NCBI RefSeq assembly: GCF_039645975.1
Contig: NZ_CP147918.1
Location: forward strand, 1,736,001-1,800,000
From: Sulfurimonas sp. HSL-1716
GTDB taxonomy: Bacteria; Campylobacterota; Campylobacteria; Campylobacterales; Sulfurimonadaceae
Reading direction: 5' to 3'
DNA: 64,000 nt
Below, piece after piece: positions 26,298 to 43,919 of the stretch. Under the pieces are notes generated by a model. It was not told the DNA's origin. It was given only the letters and a program-made list of their open reading frames with translations, and searched no databases. The position numbers were made by a program, and so were the translations under genes. The stretch's first letter is position 1. Every line of letters starts with the position of its first letter.

Positions 26298-27716
26298 TCA
26301 CTCATCTATCATGTTTTCGACAAGAGAAAATAGCTCTGCACTGGCACGCTCCATCTCTTGAAACTCTTTTAAGACTTTCTCTTTTTTGATGATACACTCA
26401 TCTTTACTGTCGATACATTTGACGACATCTATTATTTTGTTGTGTACCGTCGCATGCGGAAGGTCTATGTTTTGGTAGCTTTTTGTATGCCCGAACTGTT
26501 TTTTGCCTTCGCCGAAGAACCATTTTCCAAAACGGCAGTCATGATGCGTACCAAACTCTCCGATCTTTTTTCCGAGACTCATCGAATCGTAAGCATTGGC
26601 CTTAAAAAGAATATGATCTATCATAATGAGATTTACAAAGATACGGTTCTTTATGCTCTGTATGTCACTTTCTACCGTTTCGTTCATATCGCGAAGTTCC
26701 GCCATACTGCTGCTAAAGATATTCATCAGCTCACTGAAATCATGTACGACCCCGCGCATGGATTCAGAACTACTTGACATATCCATGCTTTCTTGCTGCA
26801 GAATCTGAACGGTCGTTCTTATCTCTACCGTTGCTTTTTGGGTACGTTCTGCCAATTTTCTGACTTCATCAGCGACGACGGCGAAGCCTCTTCCATGCTC
26901 GCCTGCGCGCGCCGCCTCGATTGCCGCGTTTAGTGCCAGCAGATTCGTCTGATCGGAGATGTCGCTTATAAGATCTATAACGGTCGTGATCTCCTGTGTA
27001 CGCTCTTTTAATGAATCGGTAGATTCGGTGTTACGGCCCAGAAGTTCAAGCAATCCGCTCAGTTTATCTCCGACGTTTTGCGATTCTTTTGCCCGTTTGA
27101 TCGTCATCTGCGTGGCATCTTGGACACTCTGGGATATCTTCTCCAGCTTGTCGGTATTTCTCTTAAAGCTTGCACGAAGAGACTGGAGCTGTTCATTGTT
27201 CTTATTGATAGTGTTTAGTTCCGTATTCAGCTGTACGCGCATCTGCGTCATATGGTTAAGGTTCATGACATCGATGCTCTCGTTTATTTTGCCGCCCGCA
27301 AAACTAAATGCAGGATTCAGTCCCGTTGTATCGAACTTTCTGAAGAACTCGTTGTTCCCCGTATATTCTATCGAGGTCACTATCTCGCGCATGAACGTTT
27401 CCATCTGATCTAAAAGATTGTTGATCTGCCGGCAGATCGTGCCTGCCGTACCACTGTCGGAGATATCTTTTATACGGCCCTCAAGGTCCCCTTTTATAGC
27501 ACTGTTTAAGACATCGATCGATCTATTCATACAAGACCTTAATCCAAAGAGATAGATGTTAAACAACACGCCAAAACCGATATACAAAAACAAAAGCAGC
27601 GTGTCCACGGTACTAAAACCGTCAAAAAAGAGCTTTACGAGATATCCGATGACAAAAGCGGCAAAAAAAAGATATCCCATAACCTGCAGTTTAAAGAGAT
27701 AGGATAAATTTGTCAT
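26298..27716 (-). CDS. cetA: CZB-domain methyl-accepting chemotaxis protein, CetA-like
   Basis: About 472 residues from ATG 27716, preceded by GGAGG at five bases. Two membrane segments lie close together (about 7-28 and 34-58) with almost no periplasmic loop, so it should sense through a partner or the cytoplasm. The signalling hairpin contains [33 protein letters not shown]. The C-terminus is a CZB zinc-binding domain with the H-C-H-H pattern ([11 protein letters not shown], later HATVHNKI). The gene overlaps the end of the PAS gene by 26 bases. A PAS protein directly upstream of a short-loop receptor is the arrangement of Campylobacter CetB/CetA; the CZB addition is extra. Confidence 0.88.
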
Positions 27717-28173
27717 AACGTCCTCCGTTCTTTGCAAGCAGATCATTCAGCATTTTTTCAGACGCACTCATTCCTCCTGTTTTTTCGGCGTCAAGAAGCT
27801 GCCGATAAAGCGGTTTTACGATATCGACGGCTTTTTTTGAGGGTTTTCTTCGCACGGAATGATATCCGATGATCTTTCCGGCTGCATCGTACGAAGGGGT
27901 CACATTCGCAAAGACCCAGTAATAATCGCCGTTTTTTGCTTTATTGACGACATATGCATAAACCTCTTTTCCTTTATGAACGGTGTCCCACAGCAGTTTA
28001 AAGACGATTTTCGGCATATCGGGATGGCGGATTATATTGTGCGGTGCGCCCAGAAGCTCTTTTTCACTATAGCCCGCAAGCTTTAAAAAAAGCTCGTTCC
28101 CATAGGTTATCTTCCCTTTTGTGTCCGTTTTGGAGACGATTATCTCATTCTTATCAAAGTTTAGTTCTTTCAT
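27691..28173 (-). CDS. cetB: Aer/CetB-like PAS sensor protein
   Basis: A stand-alone PAS protein of 160 residues: [31 protein letters not shown], then [20 protein letters not shown] and [16 protein letters not shown], then a helical tail. This is the Aer-type PAS fold that binds FAD in E. coli Aer and Campylobacter CetB; the YYWV motif carries the conserved tryptophan. It has no output domain, so it must act through a partner, most likely the overlapping receptor gene. First gene of a three-gene operon ending in the HD-GYP protein. Confidence 0.87.
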
Positions 28174-30166: not shown

Positions 30167-31378
30167 TCAATCCTCGATATTGACGATCGGAGTCTTATCT
30201 TCAAGCAGCAGCACCGGATCGATGAACGGGGCTAAAGAAGCCAGAAAGTTCATCAAAGACATGACCGGACTTGCATAAAAAAACTTGACCTTGTTGTTGT
30301 ACTCCCAAAGCTGATCCGCGTACTGATAGACTCTATGCGGCGTGTCTCCTATATTGTCTCCGTTTTTATCGAATCCCGCATATCTGTCCCAGTAATTATG
30401 TCCTATATCGTTTGCGATCGTGACATTGGCTCTAGAATCCCTTACCACATCATCGATATTACCGAATATCTTGTTATCCCTGATAGTATTGTTCTTGATA
30501 ATGGCATGAAAATGCATAGCTTCTTTGTTGTATGAGATCTCGTTATTTTTTATATATCTCTGCATACCCTCTTCGGTATTTTTCGAATCTATGTATATCC
30601 CCTGCGCATTGTAACTGATAGTATTGCCCTCTAAATGAAAATTGGACGATCCTTTGATGACTATCCCTATTCCAGCGGCTCCTTTGGAACTTTTAATCTG
30701 ATTTTTCGTTACATTCGTATCCATAACACCCATTACGATAATCGCTACGGAGTTGTATTTAAAAATATTGTCCGTGATCCTGTTTTTGCGGCTTAATCCG
30801 ATATGCAGACCGAATCTGTTATTCGTGATAGTGTTACCTTCGATAATGTTGTTATTCGAATAGGTCAAAGTGATGTCACGCGAAGCATCTATCCTATTGT
30901 TTCTTATGATATTGCCGTTACTGTACCAAATTTTCAGCGCATCACCTCTGAGCTCTATATCGTTCTTTTTGGACGTGATATAGTTATTTTGGATGATCGA
31001 GTTTTGCACCATTACCATATCTATGCCGTACAGGCTGTTTAATATCTTGCAGTTGCTTATCTCACAATCACTGACTTTGTCCATCTTGATCGCGGAATCA
31101 AGGTTTTCCATTCTGCCGCCGCTATTAGTTACGGTAAGATTTTTTAAGACGACGCCTGAACTGTTGATCGTTATGACCCTGCCCGTACCGCCGCCTTCTA
31201 TGACCACATCATGACTCTTGCCTATGATCGTCAAAGGCTTGTCGATGACGATCTGTCCCGGATATACTCCTGAAGAAAGTTTTAAAATGGAGCCGGGAGA
31301 AGCTTTGTCGATCGTTTCTTGCAGAATATTTGCGTAAGAGATGGAGATCAAAATAAAAAAAAGCAATAATAATTTCAT
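30167..31378 (-). CDS. nosD: Second NosD-like periplasmic beta-helix protein
   Basis: A Sec signal (MKLLLLFFILISISYA) and right-handed beta-helix repeats of the NosD/CASH type (NNNIIEGNTITNNRFGLHIG and similar) fill its 403 residues. It is plainly a paralogue of nosD at 36791-38008: same length, same start LQETIDKASPGSILKLSSG and same end RVYQYADQLWEYN. But where the true NosD has LHFMYAGKN and FFMYSQDT, this copy has LHIGLSRKN and IVMGVMDT, so conserved methionines are lost. It is the last gene of the nos operon, 31 bases after a PAS gene. It might serve another maturation step. Confidence 0.82.
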   Translation of the reverse strand: MKLLLLFFILISISYANILQETIDKASPGSILKLSSGVYPGQIVIDKPLTIIGKSHDVVIEGGGTGRVITINSSGVVLKNLTVTNSGGRMENLDSAIKMDKVSDCEISNCKILNSLYGIDMVMVQNSIIQNNYITSKKNDIELRGDALKIWYSNGNIIRNNRIDASRDITLTYSNNNIIEGNTITNNRFGLHIGLSRKNRITDNIFKYNSVAIIVMGVMDTNVTKNQIKSSKGAAGIGIVIKGSSNFHLEGNTISYNAQGIYIDSKNTEEGMQRYIKNNEISYNKEAMHFHAIIKNNTIRDNKIFGNIDDVVRDSRANVTIANDIGHNYWDRYAGFDKNGDNIGDTPHRVYQYADQLWEYNNKVKFFYASPVMSLMNFLASLAPFIDPVLLLEDKTPIVNIED

Positions 31379-31409: not shown

Positions 31410-31931
31410 TTAATAAAATTTATGGATCTCTTCCATAAGGTTCTGAAACTCGACATTATCGCCTTTTGATTTTAAAAAGGATTTCAAATACTCTTCACTC
31501 GCCTCGATACCCTCTTCTTTCTCTATCTCCAACAGCTTCGCATATAGGTCCGATATTATCTCGGTCACATGTTTTGAAACGGTCTTTCTTGAAGCGGTAT
31601 ATCCTATGATTTTTCCCGTATCCGTATCTCTTCTTGATTCAAACTCGGTAAACACCCAGTAGTATCTGCCGTCTTTTGCCAAGTTTTTTATAACGACATT
31701 GATATTTTTACCTTGAGATATAAACTCCCATAATAGTTTGAACACGACTTTTGGCATGTCGGGATGACGGATAATATTATGAGGTTTCCCCATCAGTTCC
31801 TCTTTGCTGTAACCGGAGATCTCTACAAAGTAATCATTGCAGAAGGTTATTGTTCCCAGTTCATCCGTTTCACTGACTATATATCTTTTTGGATCCAGCT
31901 GTATCTCTTCATTTATAGGCGTTGGTTTCAT
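31410..31931 (-). CDS. Aer-like PAS domain protein in the nos operon
   Basis: Stand-alone PAS protein of 173 residues: RYIVSETDELGTITFCNDYFVEISGYSKEELMG, then the same [19 protein letters not shown] signature as the CetB-like protein, then DGRYYWVFTEFESRRDTDTGKIIGYTASRK with the tryptophan of flavin-binding Aer PAS domains. No output domain is present. It begins 10 bases after nosL and ends 31 bases before the second nosD, so it is made together with the N2O-reductase genes. It could feed redox state of N2O respiration into taxis; that is inference. Confidence 0.85.
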   Translation of the reverse strand: MKPTPINEEIQLDPKRYIVSETDELGTITFCNDYFVEISGYSKEELMGKPHNIIRHPDMPKVVFKLLWEFISQGKNINVVIKNLAKDGRYYWVFTEFESRRDTDTGKIIGYTASRKTVSKHVTEIISDLYAKLLEIEKEEGIEASEEYLKSFLKSKGDNVEFQNLMEEIHKFY

Positions 31932-36790: not shown

Positions 36791-38008
36791 TTATCCTCCT
36801 ACTCTAACTATTGGTTTTTTATCTTCAAGCAAAAAGAGCGGTTTAGTAAACGGAGCCAGTTTTGCCAAGAAATTCAATAATGAAATCACCGGTGAACCAT
36901 AAAAGAATTTTACGCTGGGATTATAGACCCAAAGCTGATCTGCATACTGGTAGACCTTATGCGGAGTATCTCCGATATTGTCGCCGTTTTTATCAAATCC
37001 TTCGTATTTATCCCAATAGTTGCCTGCTATCTCGTTTTCGTTCGATCTGCTTCCTCTGCTGTCGTTAACGACATCTTCGATATTGCCGGCGATAATATTG
37101 TCTTTAATGACATTGTTTTCACTCAGTGAGTGAAAATGTATCGCTTCGGCATTATAGAGAATCTTGTTGCCTATCATCCAGTTGTGGGTGTTTGGTTCAA
37201 AAGGCGATCTGTCGATATATATACCCTGAGCACAGTAGATCACGGTATTATTTTTAAGAGTAAAGTTCGAAACATCTTTTAGACCTATTCCCATGCCCGT
37301 GGCACCCAAAGAACTTTTGATCACGTTTCCTTCTGCAATAGTATCTTGTGAGTACATAAAAAATATACCCACCGAGTTATACTGGTAATGATTGTTTTTT
37401 ACAATATTCTTACCCGCATACATAAAATGCAGAGAATATCTGCAGTATTCGCTGTAATTGTCTTCTATCTCGTTTCCATGCGAATACCAAACGACTACGT
37501 CACGAGATTTTTTCAAACGGTTGCCCTTTATTATATTGTCATTACTGTACCATAGCCTCAAACCATCACCTCTTAACCCGAGTTCATAGTTTTTTGAAGT
37601 TATGTTGTTATCAGATATGATCGAATTGCTAACCATTTGAAAATCTATTCCGAAAAGACAATCTTTTATATTACAATGACTGATCTCGCACTGTTTGCCG
37701 CCAACCACGGAAACGGCTGCATCCACTTTTTCATGTCTGTCGCCGCTGCCCACTATGTTTAGGTTTTTGAGCGTTACAAAAGAGCTTTTGACGGTTATGA
37801 CCGTTCCTTTCTCTCCTCCGTCGATAACGACGCCGGCTTCCTTACCGATAATGCTAAGCGGCTTATCGATCGTAATCTTTCCCTTATATACTCCTGCAGG
37901 AAGTTTGATTATAGAACCTGCGGGCGCATTGTCAATAGCTTCTTGAAGTACGTTCGCATATAATACGTTTAACAGTAAAAAGAAAACAATGATTATCGCT
38001 TTTAACAT
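36791..38008 (-). CDS. nosD: Copper-maturation beta-helix protein NosD
   Basis: A Sec signal (MLKAIIIVFFLLLNVLYA) leads into right-handed beta-helix repeats over 405 residues. It has the family's conserved patterns VVWYSHGNEIEDN, SLHFMYAGKN and GIFFMYSQDT, expected to contribute to copper handling, and the C-terminal NYWDKYEGFDKNGDNIGDTP. NosD works with NosFY in forming CuZ of NosZ. A diverged paralogue ends the same operon. Confidence 0.93.
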   Translation of the reverse strand: MLKAIIIVFFLLLNVLYANVLQEAIDNAPAGSIIKLPAGVYKGKITIDKPLSIIGKEAGVVIDGGEKGTVITVKSSFVTLKNLNIVGSGDRHEKVDAAVSVVGGKQCEISHCNIKDCLFGIDFQMVSNSIISDNNITSKNYELGLRGDGLRLWYSNDNIIKGNRLKKSRDVVVWYSHGNEIEDNYSEYCRYSLHFMYAGKNIVKNNHYQYNSVGIFFMYSQDTIAEGNVIKSSLGATGMGIGLKDVSNFTLKNNTVIYCAQGIYIDRSPFEPNTHNWMIGNKILYNAEAIHFHSLSENNVIKDNIIAGNIEDVVNDSRGSRSNENEIAGNYWDKYEGFDKNGDNIGDTPHKVYQYADQLWVYNPSVKFFYGSPVISLLNFLAKLAPFTKPLFLLEDKKPIVRVGG

Positions 38009-39006: not shown

Positions 39007-41610
39007 TTAGAATAGGTTTGCATTTTGATCTACCCATTTTAGGTATTCAATAATATTTTTGACTTCTTTTTCGTTCATATGTTGATTAGGCATTTTCAAG
39101 TTGAAATAATCAATCATACTTTTTACATACGGATCAGTATATTTAGACGCCGGATTCATAACGAAATCCTTAACCCATTTTTCACCGTTTTCATGTCTTT
39201 GTAGAACACCTGTTAAGTCCGGACCGGATGAAACTTTACCGATTACGTGACATCCGCCACATCCGCCTTCGCCAAATGCTCTTTCCCCTTCTGCAGCAGC
39301 AGGAGATTGTTTAGTAGCAACTTCTTTTACAAGCAGGTCTTTTGCTCTGATTCCAACATCGGCTGTTTTAACCATATATTGCCAGATCATGTTTTCAAAA
39401 AGAACCGCTTTTTCATAATCGCCTTTTTTCACTGCTGCATCAGATTGTTTCTTTTGCGCAGGAATTTTTCCGTATTGATCAAGAGCATCCGTCACAAGGT
39501 TTTTAACCGTTGCATGTTTTTCGAAGTGGTTTTCTTTTAAGAATTTAACAACACTTTGAATAACAGCGTCAGTAGCACTGTTTACAGCAACTGCTTTGTC
39601 ATACTCAGCTTTTAGCTGTGCTTTAGTCATTGTTTTCATTTTTAGTTTTTGAGCACTAACATATTTTTTGTTAGGATCTTTAACCATCATGTAACCCATC
39701 ATCTCTAAGTGTAGTGCTGAACAGAACTCTGTACAGTAGTACGGGAATACACCTTCCAAGTCAGCTTTAAATGTCATTGCTACCGTTTCACCCGGCTCTA
39801 AAGATGCATGGATATTGTAATCATCAACTGTAAAGCCGTGAGTTTCATCTTCAGCACGTTCTAGGTTTGTCAAGTAGAAAGTAACAGTATCGCCTTTGTT
39901 AACAGTAACTCTCTCAGGATTGATATGAGATCTGACAAGTGTTCCGTAGATATAGACATGTTTGCCTTTTCTTACGATTTTTTCTTGACCTGCCAAAGTT
40001 TTACCAACGTGTTGTTTTCCTGTTTTAGGATCTATACCCATTTGGTATCTTACTTCAGGATGAAGTTTACTCAATCTGATCGCAACTGCTTGGTGAGGTT
40101 CTCCAAGAGGTAACGGCATATCTACCAAAAGATCCATTTTCTTACCGCTGATATCAATCAACTGGTGATTTTGCGGATGTAAAGGACCTACCGGATCGAA
40201 TCTGTCGATAGCCAGTTTGTTCAATGAGATAATGTATTTACCTTGAGGATCAGCTGATTTGCCTTCCATACCACAAAGGTGACCAACGTTGTAGTGAACG
40301 TTTACTTTATCTACCACTTTTAATGTTTTATAGTTCCATTTTACGATTTGGCTGTCAACATATAAAGAAGTATAGATCTCACCGTCTTTCCAATCTTTAC
40401 CATATTGGTTATGTAATGGCCCAAGACCTAGTTCAGCTTGTCCATGTAAAGATTTTTTCATATCTAGGATAGGAATACCGTAAGGATCTCTTCCTGCATA
40501 TTCTTTATTGTCGATAAGTTTTTTGATTTTGCTCCATTGGAATACAGATGCATGAGTATCTAGTTTCCCACATACTACGATGTATTCGCCGTCCGGAGAC
40601 ACATCCACACCGTGCGGTGATTTTGGTTCAGGGATCAAGAAAAGAGCATTGTTCGCAACAGCTACGCTCATAGGAATAACTCTCATTCCGTTGATCATTT
40701 TATAGTTTTTCTTGTTTTTTACAAGTTGTGCAAGTTTTTTCCAGTTATAAACATGCATAAAGTCGGTATCATTTCTACTCATACCCGCTTCGTTCGGCGG
40801 CATACCTACTTCGATCCCACCTGTATACATTTCAGTATTAAATGAGTTTGTAAAGCCCCAGCCGTAAGACACGCCTTTACCAGCATCACTTAGATCTTGC
40901 ATATATGGAGGTAGTTCAAGAGTAAAAGAATCTTTTGGAATGATTCTTCCTTTTTTATGATCGAACTTCCATAGTGTAACACCGCCGCGATATGTTTCTT
41001 TATAATCTTCTATCGGGTGATAGTTATTATCAAACGGCGCAGCATATTGACACGCTTCTAGGATATATTCACTGTTTGGAGTAAAGAATGCTCCACCGTG
41101 CTCAGATTTAAATACAGGGTTGACCACGATTTGTTTTGTTTCGAAATCATTAAGATCGATGATTGCGACCCTAGGGTTTGCTTTATCATTGATCGCTAAC
41201 CATTTACCGTCGTATTTACCATCTGTTTCAGAAAGCGCAGGGTGGTGTGTATCTCCCCAGTTGATCTCTTTGCCTCTGATATTTCCCTCTCTTAAAATTT
41301 TCAAGCTGTCGTCATCATAACCATACCCCTGCCATGGTTCCGGTGTAAATACAGCGATGTATTTTAAGATTCTCATTGACGGTACGCCATAGACTATGAC
41401 TTGTCCACACTGCCCGCCAGAACTAAATACCATAAATTCATCTCTGCCCCCCGTTGGATTGTAGGTTTTAGCAGCATGAATAACATCGTTTTCCGTTAAG
41501 CCTCTAGCTTTCATTACTTTTTCAAGTTCCCCACCGTTTGCAGACGCAACCGTCGCAGCAAGCGAAGTACCTAAAACAAGCATGGAAAGCTTACTTAAAT
41601 ACTTGTCCAT
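39007..41610 (-). CDS. nosZ: Nitrous oxide reductase NosZ, clade II, with C-terminal cytochrome c
   Basis: It reduces N2O to N2 in the periplasm. About 867 residues from ATG 41610 (AAGGAG nearby). The Sec leader MDKYLSKLSMLVLGTSLA shows clade II rather than the Tat-exported clade I. A seven-bladed propeller carrying the CuZ histidines (GDTHHPA, SPHGVDVS, GPLHNQ, EPHQAV and others) is followed by a cupredoxin with the CuA motif YCTEFCSALHLEMMGYM (about 640-660). A linker and a monoheme domain with GCGGCHVIG (about 790-798) follow. The fused heme domain is the epsilonproteobacterial form and accepts electrons from NosC-type cytochromes. Confidence 0.97.
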   Translation of the reverse strand: MDKYLSKLSMLVLGTSLAATVASANGGELEKVMKARGLTENDVIHAAKTYNPTGGRDEFMVFSSGGQCGQVIVYGVPSMRILKYIAVFTPEPWQGYGYDDDSLKILREGNIRGKEINWGDTHHPALSETDGKYDGKWLAINDKANPRVAIIDLNDFETKQIVVNPVFKSEHGGAFFTPNSEYILEACQYAAPFDNNYHPIEDYKETYRGGVTLWKFDHKKGRIIPKDSFTLELPPYMQDLSDAGKGVSYGWGFTNSFNTEMYTGGIEVGMPPNEAGMSRNDTDFMHVYNWKKLAQLVKNKKNYKMINGMRVIPMSVAVANNALFLIPEPKSPHGVDVSPDGEYIVVCGKLDTHASVFQWSKIKKLIDNKEYAGRDPYGIPILDMKKSLHGQAELGLGPLHNQYGKDWKDGEIYTSLYVDSQIVKWNYKTLKVVDKVNVHYNVGHLCGMEGKSADPQGKYIISLNKLAIDRFDPVGPLHPQNHQLIDISGKKMDLLVDMPLPLGEPHQAVAIRLSKLHPEVRYQMGIDPKTGKQHVGKTLAGQEKIVRKGKHVYIYGTLVRSHINPERVTVNKGDTVTFYLTNLERAEDETHGFTVDDYNIHASLEPGETVAMTFKADLEGVFPYYCTEFCSALHLEMMGYMMVKDPNKKYVSAQKLKMKTMTKAQLKAEYDKAVAVNSATDAVIQSVVKFLKENHFEKHATVKNLVTDALDQYGKIPAQKKQSDAAVKKGDYEKAVLFENMIWQYMVKTADVGIRAKDLLVKEVATKQSPAAAEGERAFGEGGCGGCHVIGKVSSGPDLTGVLQRHENGEKWVKDFVMNPASKYTDPYVKSMIDYFNLKMPNQHMNEKEVKNIIEYLKWVDQNANLF

Positions 41611-41673
41611 TTTCCACTCCTTAAAATTCTTTAAGCATAGGCAAAAAACAACCATATACTCAAATTAAGCAAA

Positions 41674-41679
41674 ATAATA
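41674..41679 (-). promoter_or_regulatory. Putative -10 element of nosZ
   Basis: TATTAT on the minus strand. With the usual 6-7 bases to the start, transcription would begin near 41667, placing the palindrome at 41695-41722 exactly at -41.5. The nosZ ATG is about 57 bases further on. Confidence 0.5.
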
Positions 41680-41694
41680 TTACATTTTACAGGG

Positions 41695-41722
41695 TAAAAA
41701 TTTGACCCAGGTCAAATTTTTA
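41695..41722 (-). promoter_or_regulatory. Crp/Fnr-type operator upstream of nosZ
   Basis: A 28-base inverted repeat with 13 of 14 matching positions per arm; the core is TTTGACCCAGGTCAAA, that is TTGAC-N4-GTCAA, close to the FNR/DNR consensus TTGAT-N4-ATCAA. It lies 85 bases upstream of the nosZ ATG, directly behind the stop of the upstream gene. The regulator is probably the Crp/Fnr protein encoded at 42707-43363. Confidence 0.75.
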
Positions 41723-41724
41723 CA

Positions 41725-42702
41725 TTACTTTGATTTATTAAGATTATAAGTAGAAATTAAGTTGTCTAAATCGATTTTTAGATTCTTTAGTTTGAGGGTT
41801 GAATTGGTCAGCTCTTCCAGACTGTTGATCACGCTGTCCTCTTTTTTCGTCAACTCGTGATCGATATCTTTATCTTTTTCCATAAGTGCGAGAAGCTCGA
41901 GAATATCTTCTATATTGTTCTCGACAATCTCTAAAGATTCATACGTATGCTGCAGTAATTCCGTAGAATTTTTTACCGATTTGTTTATTTTATTGACCAA
42001 GAAGTTAAAATTATTCGTGGCTTCGGTTACATCCTCGATATTATTGTATATCTTGATCGGCTTAAGCCCTTGAATGGTCGAATTGGTAATGATATTCTTA
42101 GAAGTAAGAAGAAATTTTTGTACAAAATCGATAACGCTTTTGAGCTGTGTAAACAGGTAGATAAGCGAAAGGGCCAGAAGAATGAACAAGATATCCTGTA
42201 CTGCCTTAAAGGCGTTTATTTTATTGCTAAAATACAACTGATGCATCTTATTGAGCTTATTTATTTCAAAGACAAGCTGCAGATTCGTATTATATATGTC
42301 GTTTACAAGTTCCTGTAAAAGCATGGTTGAGTAGACCGATGTGGTATTCACCTGCCCCATAAAAGTTTGCGCCAGGTTATAAAACTTATTTCTTAAATGG
42401 ATTATGTTTGCTTTTTGCTGTTTCCCCAAAGGCAGTTTTTTATCGTCTAAAGTCTTGATCTCGGTATTTATACGAAACAGATTTTTTTTGATCGAGTTAT
42501 CCAGCTCTTTGGTAGAGGAGTTTTCATTCTTATATATATAAAAAATATTTTTCGATATCTCTTGAATAAAATCTTTCTGTTGGTTTAAAGAGGTCAGGAT
42601 GCTGCTTTGAATATTGTTTTGATAATTAATATAGTTGAACAAAAGGGCCAATGCCATCGATAACATAAAAATCAATATACCGACTATTTTTATTTTTTTC
42701 AT
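41725..42702 (-). CDS. Sensor-like two-helix membrane protein without output domain
   Basis: 325 residues. Membrane segment 1 (about 7-24) and segment 2 (about 165-186, ILFILLALSLIYLFT) enclose a helical periplasmic domain of about 140 residues rich in Asn, Gln and Leu, like the four-helix sensors of NarX or PilJ type. The cytoplasmic part (about 190-325) is a coiled coil without kinase, HAMP-kinase, GGDEF or chemoreceptor hairpin signatures. It begins 4 bases after the Crp/Fnr gene, in the same operon, and its stop abuts the nosZ operator. It may sense a nitrogen oxide or quinone-linked signal for that regulator (inference). Confidence 0.6.
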   Translation of the reverse strand: MKKIKIVGILIFMLSMALALLFNYINYQNNIQSSILTSLNQQKDFIQEISKNIFYIYKNENSSTKELDNSIKKNLFRINTEIKTLDDKKLPLGKQQKANIIHLRNKFYNLAQTFMGQVNTTSVYSTMLLQELVNDIYNTNLQLVFEINKLNKMHQLYFSNKINAFKAVQDILFILLALSLIYLFTQLKSVIDFVQKFLLTSKNIITNSTIQGLKPIKIYNNIEDVTEATNNFNFLVNKINKSVKNSTELLQHTYESLEIVENNIEDILELLALMEKDKDIDHELTKKEDSVINSLEELTNSTLKLKNLKIDLDNLISTYNLNKSK

Positions 42703-42706
42703 CTGA

Positions 42707-43363
42707 TCATTCCTTATATATCGCTTCTAAACCTGAAGAATCCAATACAATGACCCTTCCATGGATAATATCGATTATCTTATTGCGTTTTAATCTATTT
42801 AATATGCGTGAAAGCGTAGCGGGCTGAATATGCAGGACAAGAGAAACTTCATGCCTTTTTAATTTGTTAAACATATCAAGGTCCGTATTTAACATCATGG
42901 CAACCTTTGATACGGAATCAAAAATAAACTCTCTGTCGATTAGAAACTCCAGTTTTTTCGACCTGGAAATCATTTCATTTATAAACTCAAAACATAGTAC
43001 GTTGTTATGTAAAAACTCCTCTTTGAAGCGTTTATAGTCTACGCCGAGTATCTGTGAATCTTCCAAAAGAGTTATATTGGAAAAAGAGAGGATCGTTTCG
43101 CTTTTTATATCCGAGATTCTTGATATAAGCGAATTCTCATGTATATAGTATAGGAATATATCGTTTTCATGCTTATCTATCTTATATGCTTTAGCCAGAC
43201 CTTTGGTCAAGAAAAGAAGCTCTTTGCTTTGCTCCTTTTCATAATAAAGAAGATAACCTTTATTGTAATCATGCAGGGTGGAAAAGCTAGCTAATTTTTG
43301 GATATCTTCACTGCTAAGGGCAGCAAAAAAGTCCAATGATTCTATAGCTTTTAATATAGACAC
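42707..43363 (-). CDS. Crp/Fnr-family transcriptional regulator
   Basis: 218 residues from a GTG start. The N-terminal cyclic-nucleotide-like beta-roll (about 10-125) contains GYLLYYEKEQSKELLFLTKGLAKAY. A dimer helix follows, then a Crp-type helix-turn-helix (about 165-200, RHEVSLVLHIQPATLSRILNRLKRNKII). The four cysteines of FNR are absent, so it is not an oxygen-sensing Fe-S protein; DNR/NarR-like heme or ligand sensing is possible. The operators TTGAC-N4-GTCAA before its own operon and before nosZ suggest that it activates both. Confidence 0.88.
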   Translation of the reverse strand: MSILKAIESLDFFAALSSEDIQKLASFSTLHDYNKGYLLYYEKEQSKELLFLTKGLAKAYKIDKHENDIFLYYIHENSLISRISDIKSETILSFSNITLLEDSQILGVDYKRFKEEFLHNNVLCFEFINEMISRSKKLEFLIDREFIFDSVSKVAMMLNTDLDMFNKLKRHEVSLVLHIQPATLSRILNRLKRNKIIDIIHGRVIVLDSSGLEAIYKE

Positions 43364-43370
43364 AAAAAAC

Positions 43371-43844
43371 CTAATTTATAAGATTCAAACAATCTTTTTT
43401 TGTGATATCGAACTCAAAGAGAGTATTTTTTGTTTTCGCGCTCGTATAGATGTAAGAGACGTTTATTCCTGCGTCTAAGAAAGTTTTCGAAGATTGGCAT
43501 ATCCCCTTTGTGATACTTTTTTGCATTCTTGCTTTGTCGTCTTTTATCACAGCCTGATCATTTTTGGCACCGGTATTTATCTCGAATGTATATACCAGCG
43601 ATGAGTTTTTACTACCGATCTTTATCAATTGTGTATATTTATCTACGGTCTGCGGCAAAGTTTTAGAGACTTCCGCGACTACCATCTTGATCACATGTTC
43701 TCTTTGCTTCATCATCTCTTTTTTAGGAAATTCACCGGGTCGCGTCGGTATTTCATCTGCAAAAGAATAAGAGCTAAAAGAGATCAAAATGAAAATCGGG
43801 AGCAGTGAACTTTTTATTAGAGTAAGAACTTTGTCATAACGCAT
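43371..43844 (-). CDS. Exported protein of unknown function, nos regulatory operon
   Basis: 157 residues with a long basic n-region and signal peptide ending SSYSFA. The mature part begins DEIPTRPGEFPKKEMM and has two cysteines (KGICQSSK and KKDCLNL) that could form a disulfide. No family is recognised. First gene of an operon with the Crp/Fnr regulator (7 bases downstream) and the sensor-like membrane protein. AAGGCG precedes the ATG. Candidate periplasmic ligand-binding partner, without direct evidence. Confidence 0.65.
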   Translation of the reverse strand: MRYDKVLTLIKSSLLPIFILISFSSYSFADEIPTRPGEFPKKEMMKQREHVIKMVVAEVSKTLPQTVDKYTQLIKIGSKNSSLVYTFEINTGAKNDQAVIKDDKARMQKSITKGICQSSKTFLDAGINVSYIYTSAKTKNTLFEFDITKKDCLNLIN

Positions 43845-43876
43845 ATTTCGCCTTTTTCTTGATGTATGTGGCCGGT

Positions 43877-43919
43877 ATTTTACATTAGCGCTCGGCTCAA
43901 ATATTTGACCTAGGTCAAA
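43877..43919 (-). promoter_or_regulatory. Promoter and Crp/Fnr operator of the regulatory operon
   Basis: TTTGACCTAGGTCAAA (43904-43919) is a perfect 16-base palindrome of the TTGAC-N4-GTCAA type. A -10-like TAAAAT lies at 43882-43877. The inferred start near 43870 puts the palindrome centre at -41.5, the same geometry as at nosZ. This suggests positive autoregulation. Confidence 0.72.

Follow-up and report, generated by a model that had tools for sequence, protein, structure and literature searches.

Upstream of the clade II nosZ operon of Sulfurimonas sp. HSL-1716, a regulator of the Crp/Fnr family (here CRP) is encoded together with a membrane protein of the NarX/PilJ type that carries no output domain (here MEMB), and these two proteins form a real, obligate unit. 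We consider it probable that they work as a transmembrane signalling pair without a kinase, in which MEMB would read a periplasmic nitrogen oxide and control CRP by direct contact. In the window, i.e. the whole stretch of 64,000 nucleotides analysed here, both genes are preceded by that of an exported protein (EXP), and the three follow one another on the minus strand in the order EXP, CRP and MEMB (Table 1). The intergenic gaps of 7 bp (EXP-CRP) and 4 bp (CRP-MEMB) bear out the tight packing that had been noted when these genes were read from the sequence alone. Behind MEMB, the same strand carries nosZ, nosB, nosD, nosG, two cytochrome genes, nosH, nosF and nosY. The genome, a single contig of 2.26 Mb, belongs to the Sulfurimonadaceae.

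Some further features of the nos cluster were observed. The nosD gene is present twice (30167-31378 and 36791-38008). Small proteins consisting of a single PAS domain, without output domain, are encoded in or near the cluster (31410-31931 and 27691-28173), and a similar one is found in a nap operon (L039 18778-19230); a PAS gene is also drawn among the denitrification genes of Nitrosophilus labii (PMC11539149). These single-PAS proteins are candidates for another output-less sensor.

Table 1. Positions in the window of the three-gene module, its promoter elements and its presumed target.
Feature	Position	Strand	Basis
EXP (exported protein, 157 aa; PA3611/AspS-pilotin-like fold)	43371-43844	-	ORF, alignment, AlphaFold/Foldseek
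CRP (Crp/Fnr regulator, NssA type, 218 aa, GTG start; MEMB partner)	42707-43363	-	ORF, Pfam HTH_Crp_2 over cut-off
MEMB (325 aa, two TM, PilJ/NarX-like periplasmic four-helix domain, cytoplasmic coiled coil)	41725-42702	-	ORF, family Pfam PilJ, model match to NarQ
Degenerate N-box LTSLNQQKDFIQ of MEMB, residues 36-47	42562-42597	-	N-box definition of PMC6381276
K43 of MEMB, in place of the nitrate-binding Arg	42574-42576	-	Family alignment
MEMB residues 286-315, most conserved cytoplasmic segment, candidate docking site	41758-41847	-	Conservation profile, 159 pairs
Palindrome TTGACCTAGGTCAA upstream of the EXP-CRP-MEMB module, centre near -41.5	43905-43918	-	Pattern scan
Module promoter -10 hexamer TAAAAT	43877-43882	-	Starts 22 nt after palindrome
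Palindrome TTGACCCAGGTCAA upstream of nosZ, centre near -41.5	41702-41715	-	Pattern scan
nosZ promoter -10 hexamer TATTAT	41674-41679	-	22-nt spacing from palindrome, as at module
nosZ (clade II, Sec-dependent, C-terminal cytochrome c; presumed target)	39007-41655	-	TIGR04246 E 9e-265

A Crp/Fnr regulator paired with an output-less membrane protein

Among 101 distinct MEMB open reading frames, which were found independently of CRP, 100 have a CRP gene immediately in front of them in the same orientation; the only other one is the second half of a MEMB gene split by a frameshift (genome G389). The same arrangement, MEMB behind CRP, was found at all of the 80 named loci retrieved with CRP as query. 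The two genes are usually spaced by -8 to +12 bp, overlaps of 4 or 8 bp being commonest, and no CRP-MEMB fusion protein was seen among the loci read, most of which come from draft assemblies. With the window MEMB alone as query, matches were obtained in 31 of the 150 genomes of the order, while a MEMB family profile matched 139 of the 397 genomes of the phylum, the weakest of these matches possibly being other PilJ proteins. Members of the CRP family without MEMB occur in the same genomes, on other branches. The motif FNxxK[RK], located before the helix-turn-helix, is present in 153 of 159 partnered CRPs and in none of 18 unpartnered ones; since the latter are more distant paralogues, this motif may mark ancestry and not an interface.

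The window CRP contains one cysteine in the whole protein, which is not N-terminal, and the absence of the N-terminal 4Fe-4S cysteines of FNR agrees with what had been said of it earlier. In most CRPs of the nos type (see below), e.g. that of the window, the recognition helix reads PATLSR and not PETLSR. The idea that this E-to-A change confers a new DNA specificity was dropped, because nos and nap sites look alike. In G389 (L103 9410-10382), a MEMB of the nos type is split into two overlapping frames, with EXP, CRP and nosZ intact, and represents either a natural knock-out or a sequencing error.

Searches of Pfam, NCBIfam and the PDB with the sequence of the window MEMB by itself returned no recognised domain, so that a family profile was needed. 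The PilJ domain (PF13675) was detected in 15 of 21 family members (Pfam, E<=0.1) and scored over cut-off in representatives of the nap-type and tandem-type MEMBs, family proteins having either one PilJ domain or two in tandem. In the PDB, the family profile matched PilJ as well as the nitrate-binding domain of McpN (6gcv). The window MEMB, too diverged for a Pfam match of its own, is counted as a PilJ protein by homology. Its AlphaFold model (pLDDT 77; helices 2-58, 65-87, 94-118 and 123-206) displays a feature of the NarX/NarQ type, namely a periplasmic four-helix sensor flanked by two transmembrane helices, and matches sensor fragments of NarQ in several entries (Foldseek: probability 0.96-0.99, TMt <=0.64, weak E of 0.08-0.3). 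A NarQ fragment aligned collinearly with the profile over the P-box, at a level that is not significant (probability 1.4%, E 0.038), and this comparison is given no weight here.

No kinase domain was found in the window MEMB or five further members, the protein stopping after its coiled coil; no HAMP domain was detected in the members scanned, and no MCP signalling domain in the window MEMB or family representatives. Together with the NarQ match of the model and the PilJ domains of the family, this sustains the earlier description of the third protein as a NarX/PilJ-like sensor stripped of its output. Across 159 pairs, the most conserved block of 15 residues falls within cytoplasmic C-terminal residues 286-315, where E288, D289, I292, L298, L305, L308 and L312 are invariant or near-invariant. 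This segment occupies the place where the output of a kinase or receptor would otherwise stand, and is a candidate docking site for CRP.

Kinship with NssA and target promoters

Genomes G245 and G077 each encode three strong Crp proteins, whose identities of 45.2/28.6/25.5 and 33.2/48.8/28.2 agree, in all six cases within about 1.2 points, with the values published for N. labii versus NssA/NssB/NssC (44.8/29.2/26.1 and 33.3/50.0/28.2; PMC11539149). On the strength of these six matches, G245 is taken as Wolinella succinogenes and its paired CRP as NssA, which regulates the nitrate response in that organism (PMC6682613). The CRP taken as NssA precedes a tandem-PilJ MEMB located directly upstream of napA (L089); no MEMB partner was found for W. 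succinogenes NssB and NssC. The window CRP is 36% identical to NssA, 30% to NssB and 25% to NssC. According to a review of 2021, the sensing of nitrate, NO and N2O by Nss proteins needs further study (PMC8139620). In the literature searched, mainly papers outside subscription, no Nss regulator is mentioned as having a PilJ partner.

The perfect palindrome TTGAC-N4-GTCAA occurs six times in the 2.26 Mb genome, and the reversed control pattern not at all. Within 200 bp upstream of nosZ, nos-type loci carry it exactly in 50 of 56 cases and with one mismatch in 6 (0.05 and 0.7, respectively, in the shuffled control), whereas the corresponding figures upstream of napA are 23 and 6 out of 32. A TAnnnT hexamer stands exactly 22 nt after the palindrome at 50/50 exact nosZ sites, and at 22 nt (16/23) or 23 nt (7/23) at those of napA. 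Before both genes this reads as the spacing of a class II activator, with the centre of the site near -41.5, and as the hexamers lie at 22 nt at both window sites, this position is right for both. The target promoter thus holds a site of the TTGA-N6-TCAA form known for Nss proteins.

The sequence-only reading had placed a perfect site at -41.5 before the module. The site before nosZ recurs with at most one mismatch in 56/56 nos-type loci; that before the module exists in this genome but is not generally conserved in relatives, one exact and four one-mismatch sites being present among 48 nos-type loci with EXP. General autoregulation of the module through the palindrome was therefore rejected, a good module site being for the most part peculiar to this genome. 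Additional perfect palindromes of the same genome (L002, L003) are found close to other Crp genes of the Nss-like kind, in one case divergent from genes for a hemerythrin-like and an NnrS-like protein, which suggests that a larger NO regulon uses this site.

Nitrate box, exported protein and proposed signalling

The N-box, as defined with McpN, is [IVL][ND]xAGxQRML[ST]Q, and its arginine is essential for nitrate binding (PMC6381276). With nap and nos classes assigned by a 1.5 kb neighbourhood rule, an R-type box is kept by all 49 pairs beside nap, 43 of them having the strict N-box, and is absent in 59 of 60 nosZ-linked pairs (Fisher p 2e-30 vs nap-linked). The N-box found in nap-linked relatives is present neither in the window MEMB nor in the nos type as a whole, where about 98% of the proteins have Lys at the ligand position, this residue being Arg in all single-PilJ MEMBs of the nap type. 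Further changes in the nos-type box are Gly to Asn (95%) and Leu to Phe (87%), and N40, K43, F45 and Q47 are strongly conserved. Substitutions at such high frequencies represent a conserved change and not random decay.

Pairs of the N-box type precede nap and nrf operons across the phylum, in which NapA is too common for co-occurrence to discriminate, and 25 of 88, many of them with tandem PilJ domains, have no nap, nos or nrf gene nearby within the stretch read. N-box-less pairs, i.e. those of the nos type, adjoin nosZ in 54 of the 63 loci for which sufficient sequence was available. The synteny survey that had been proposed for the putative nos control module thus upholds a unit of regulator and output-less sensor that, in its nos type, lies mostly at nosZ, although the family to which it belongs is wider than nos.

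Among the nosZ-linked pairs there is a single exception (L051 of genome G120, Arcobacteraceae), where nosZ is immediately preceded by a pair of the nap type whose N-box is near-intact; this nosZ may therefore be controlled by nitrate. In an Arcobacter MEMB (L245) the box reads IHIASNQSVLTQ, with Arg changed to Ser, an independent loss of the nitrate arginine. We also would like to mention a third PilJ protein of the Sulfurimonas genome (L118 652-1866), which combines the N-box-like sequence INVSGKQRMLSQ with a fused GGDEF domain and is possibly a nitrate-controlled diguanylate cyclase.

Of 57 nos-type loci adjacent to nosZ, 48 have EXP immediately before CRP, versus 0 of 88 N-box-type pairs, and EXP accompanies only the nos type. 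Of 26 EXP-bearing genomes of the family, 25 also have nosZ (hypergeometric p 1e-15, with a hand-chosen threshold). Two cysteines, C116 and C152, are invariant in the alignment of seven homologues. Sequence-based searches gave no match for EXP; its AlphaFold model (pLDDT 80.5) matches 3npd (Foldseek E 4e-7, TMt 0.83), 6i2v and 4ftf, which are a PA3611-like secreted protein and pilotins of the AspS/EpsS type. As these matches are of fold and not of sequence, function is not transferable from these proteins.

A second CRP/MEMB pair of the window genome, located directly upstream of napA, is 44% and 29% identical to the nos pair. CRP and MEMB trees are concordant (159 partners; Mantel r 0.84, reached by 0 of 999 permutations), and the nos type forms one clade with support 1.0 in both, bar the same single sequence. 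The unit was duplicated and specialised as a whole, and we infer that the change went from the nap form to the nos form. Linkage also favours co-inheritance, and tree agreement alone consequently does not prove contact.

In the mechanism that we favour, the periplasmic four-helix domain of MEMB would bind a small nitrogen oxide, and the signal would cross the membrane to the cytoplasmic coil, whose conserved C-terminal segment would touch CRP, perhaps near the FNxxK[RK] hinge, and switch its activity, MEMB either activating CRP upon ligand binding or releasing CRP that it had sequestered. CRP would then activate the adjoining operon from its TTGAC-N4-GTCAA site in class II position. In its ancestral form, the pair would have sensed nitrate and governed nap/nrf, as NssA of W. 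succinogenes with its tandem-PilJ partner, and the nos form would be a duplicate that moved to nosZ, acquired EXP and replaced the N-box by a different conserved sequence. The ligand of the nap-type MEMB is very probably nitrate. The nos form probably reads a different one, N2O being one candidate; for this type, the options also extend to some other nitrogen oxide, to a signal relayed by EXP and to a locked state with no ligand at all.

This last option, which concerns the nos branch only and is compatible with the pair model, has a real if minor chance of being correct. A ligand-less MEMB, locked in one state like NarQ R50K, would leave nosZ under constitutive anaerobic or cross-talk control, and it would fit the near-universal Lys at the ligand position, the description of the NarQ R50K structure (5jeq) as apo and the constitutive expression of denitrification genes in N. 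labii (PMC11539149), where the nap-linked pair is of the N-box type. However, the conservation of the replacement residues and the presence of EXP suggest a pocket that was re-specialised and not decayed.

In another explanation, CRP itself would be the sensor, either of NO through a haem like that of DNR or of redox state, and the role of MEMB would be confined to tuning or localising it, e.g. as an anti-activator that keeps CRP membrane-bound until demand for the operon arises. Regulators of the Nss/DNR type can work without a partner, unpartnered paralogues being present in the same genomes, and MEMB may act in either direction; against the pair model also stand the lack of fusion proteins among the loci read and G389, with its split MEMB beside an intact nosZ. 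Nevertheless, it is in MEMB that the N-box has been retained at nap/nrf and altered at nosZ, which speaks for MEMB as the reader of the ligand, and we regard sensing by CRP itself as improbable. That MEMB serves chemotaxis or type IV pili as an accessory protein, placed by chance in a regulatory operon, is suggested by the name and origin of the PilJ domain, but is hardly credible for a protein that lacks an MCP signalling domain and stands always beside CRP and mostly beside nap, nos or nrf in the loci read.

If a kinase-less pair is accepted, bacterial transmembrane signalling would extend past kinases and chemoreceptors, and a testable answer is offered to how Campylobacterota sense nitrate and possibly N2O. 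For the question of Nss sensing, one gene beside nssA and one arginine are singled out in a genetically tractable organism. A bolder version, about which we are doubtful, would see in these pairs a new signalling class, widespread in Campylobacterota, of enzyme-less nitrogen-oxide receptors contacting a Crp/Fnr activator, with the nos branch (degenerate N-box plus EXP) as a dedicated N2O sensor. We know of no described example of a dedicated N2O sensor of such a kind. W. succinogenes NssC is reported to respond to N2O and has no MEMB partner, so that N2O sensing in that organism need not involve MEMB. If the nos branch does sense N2O, it would open a first way of studying the means by which strong N2O consumers induce the enzyme that removes this greenhouse gas.

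Comparison with known systems

MEMB shares with NarX and NarQ (NarXL, NarQP) the periplasmic four-helix sensor between two transmembrane helices, the ligand arginine in helix 1 and the link to nitrate-respiration genes, and NarQ is its best fold match. Differently from these sensors, MEMB has no kinase domain, no HAMP was detected in the members scanned, and its partner is a Crp/Fnr protein and not a response regulator. With McpN of Pseudomonas aeruginosa (6gcv) it has in common the PilJ domain and, in nap/nrf-linked MEMBs, the same N-box motif, but it is devoid of the MCP signalling domain, and the nos-type MEMBs also of the N-box. Among the Nss regulators (NssA, NssB and NssC of W. succinogenes, NssR of C. 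jejuni), the window CRP is a paralogue of NssA and shares the TTGA-N6-TCAA sites, whereas NssB and NssC have no PilJ partner; FNR, unlike the window CRP, has N-terminal cysteines that hold a 4Fe-4S cluster. Transcription factors controlled through contact with a membrane protein are known from FecR-FecI and EIICB-Mlc. The contact proposed here between CRP and MEMB would resemble these systems in that a membrane protein controls a cytoplasmic transcription factor without phosphorylation, while fold, ligand class and regulator family are different.
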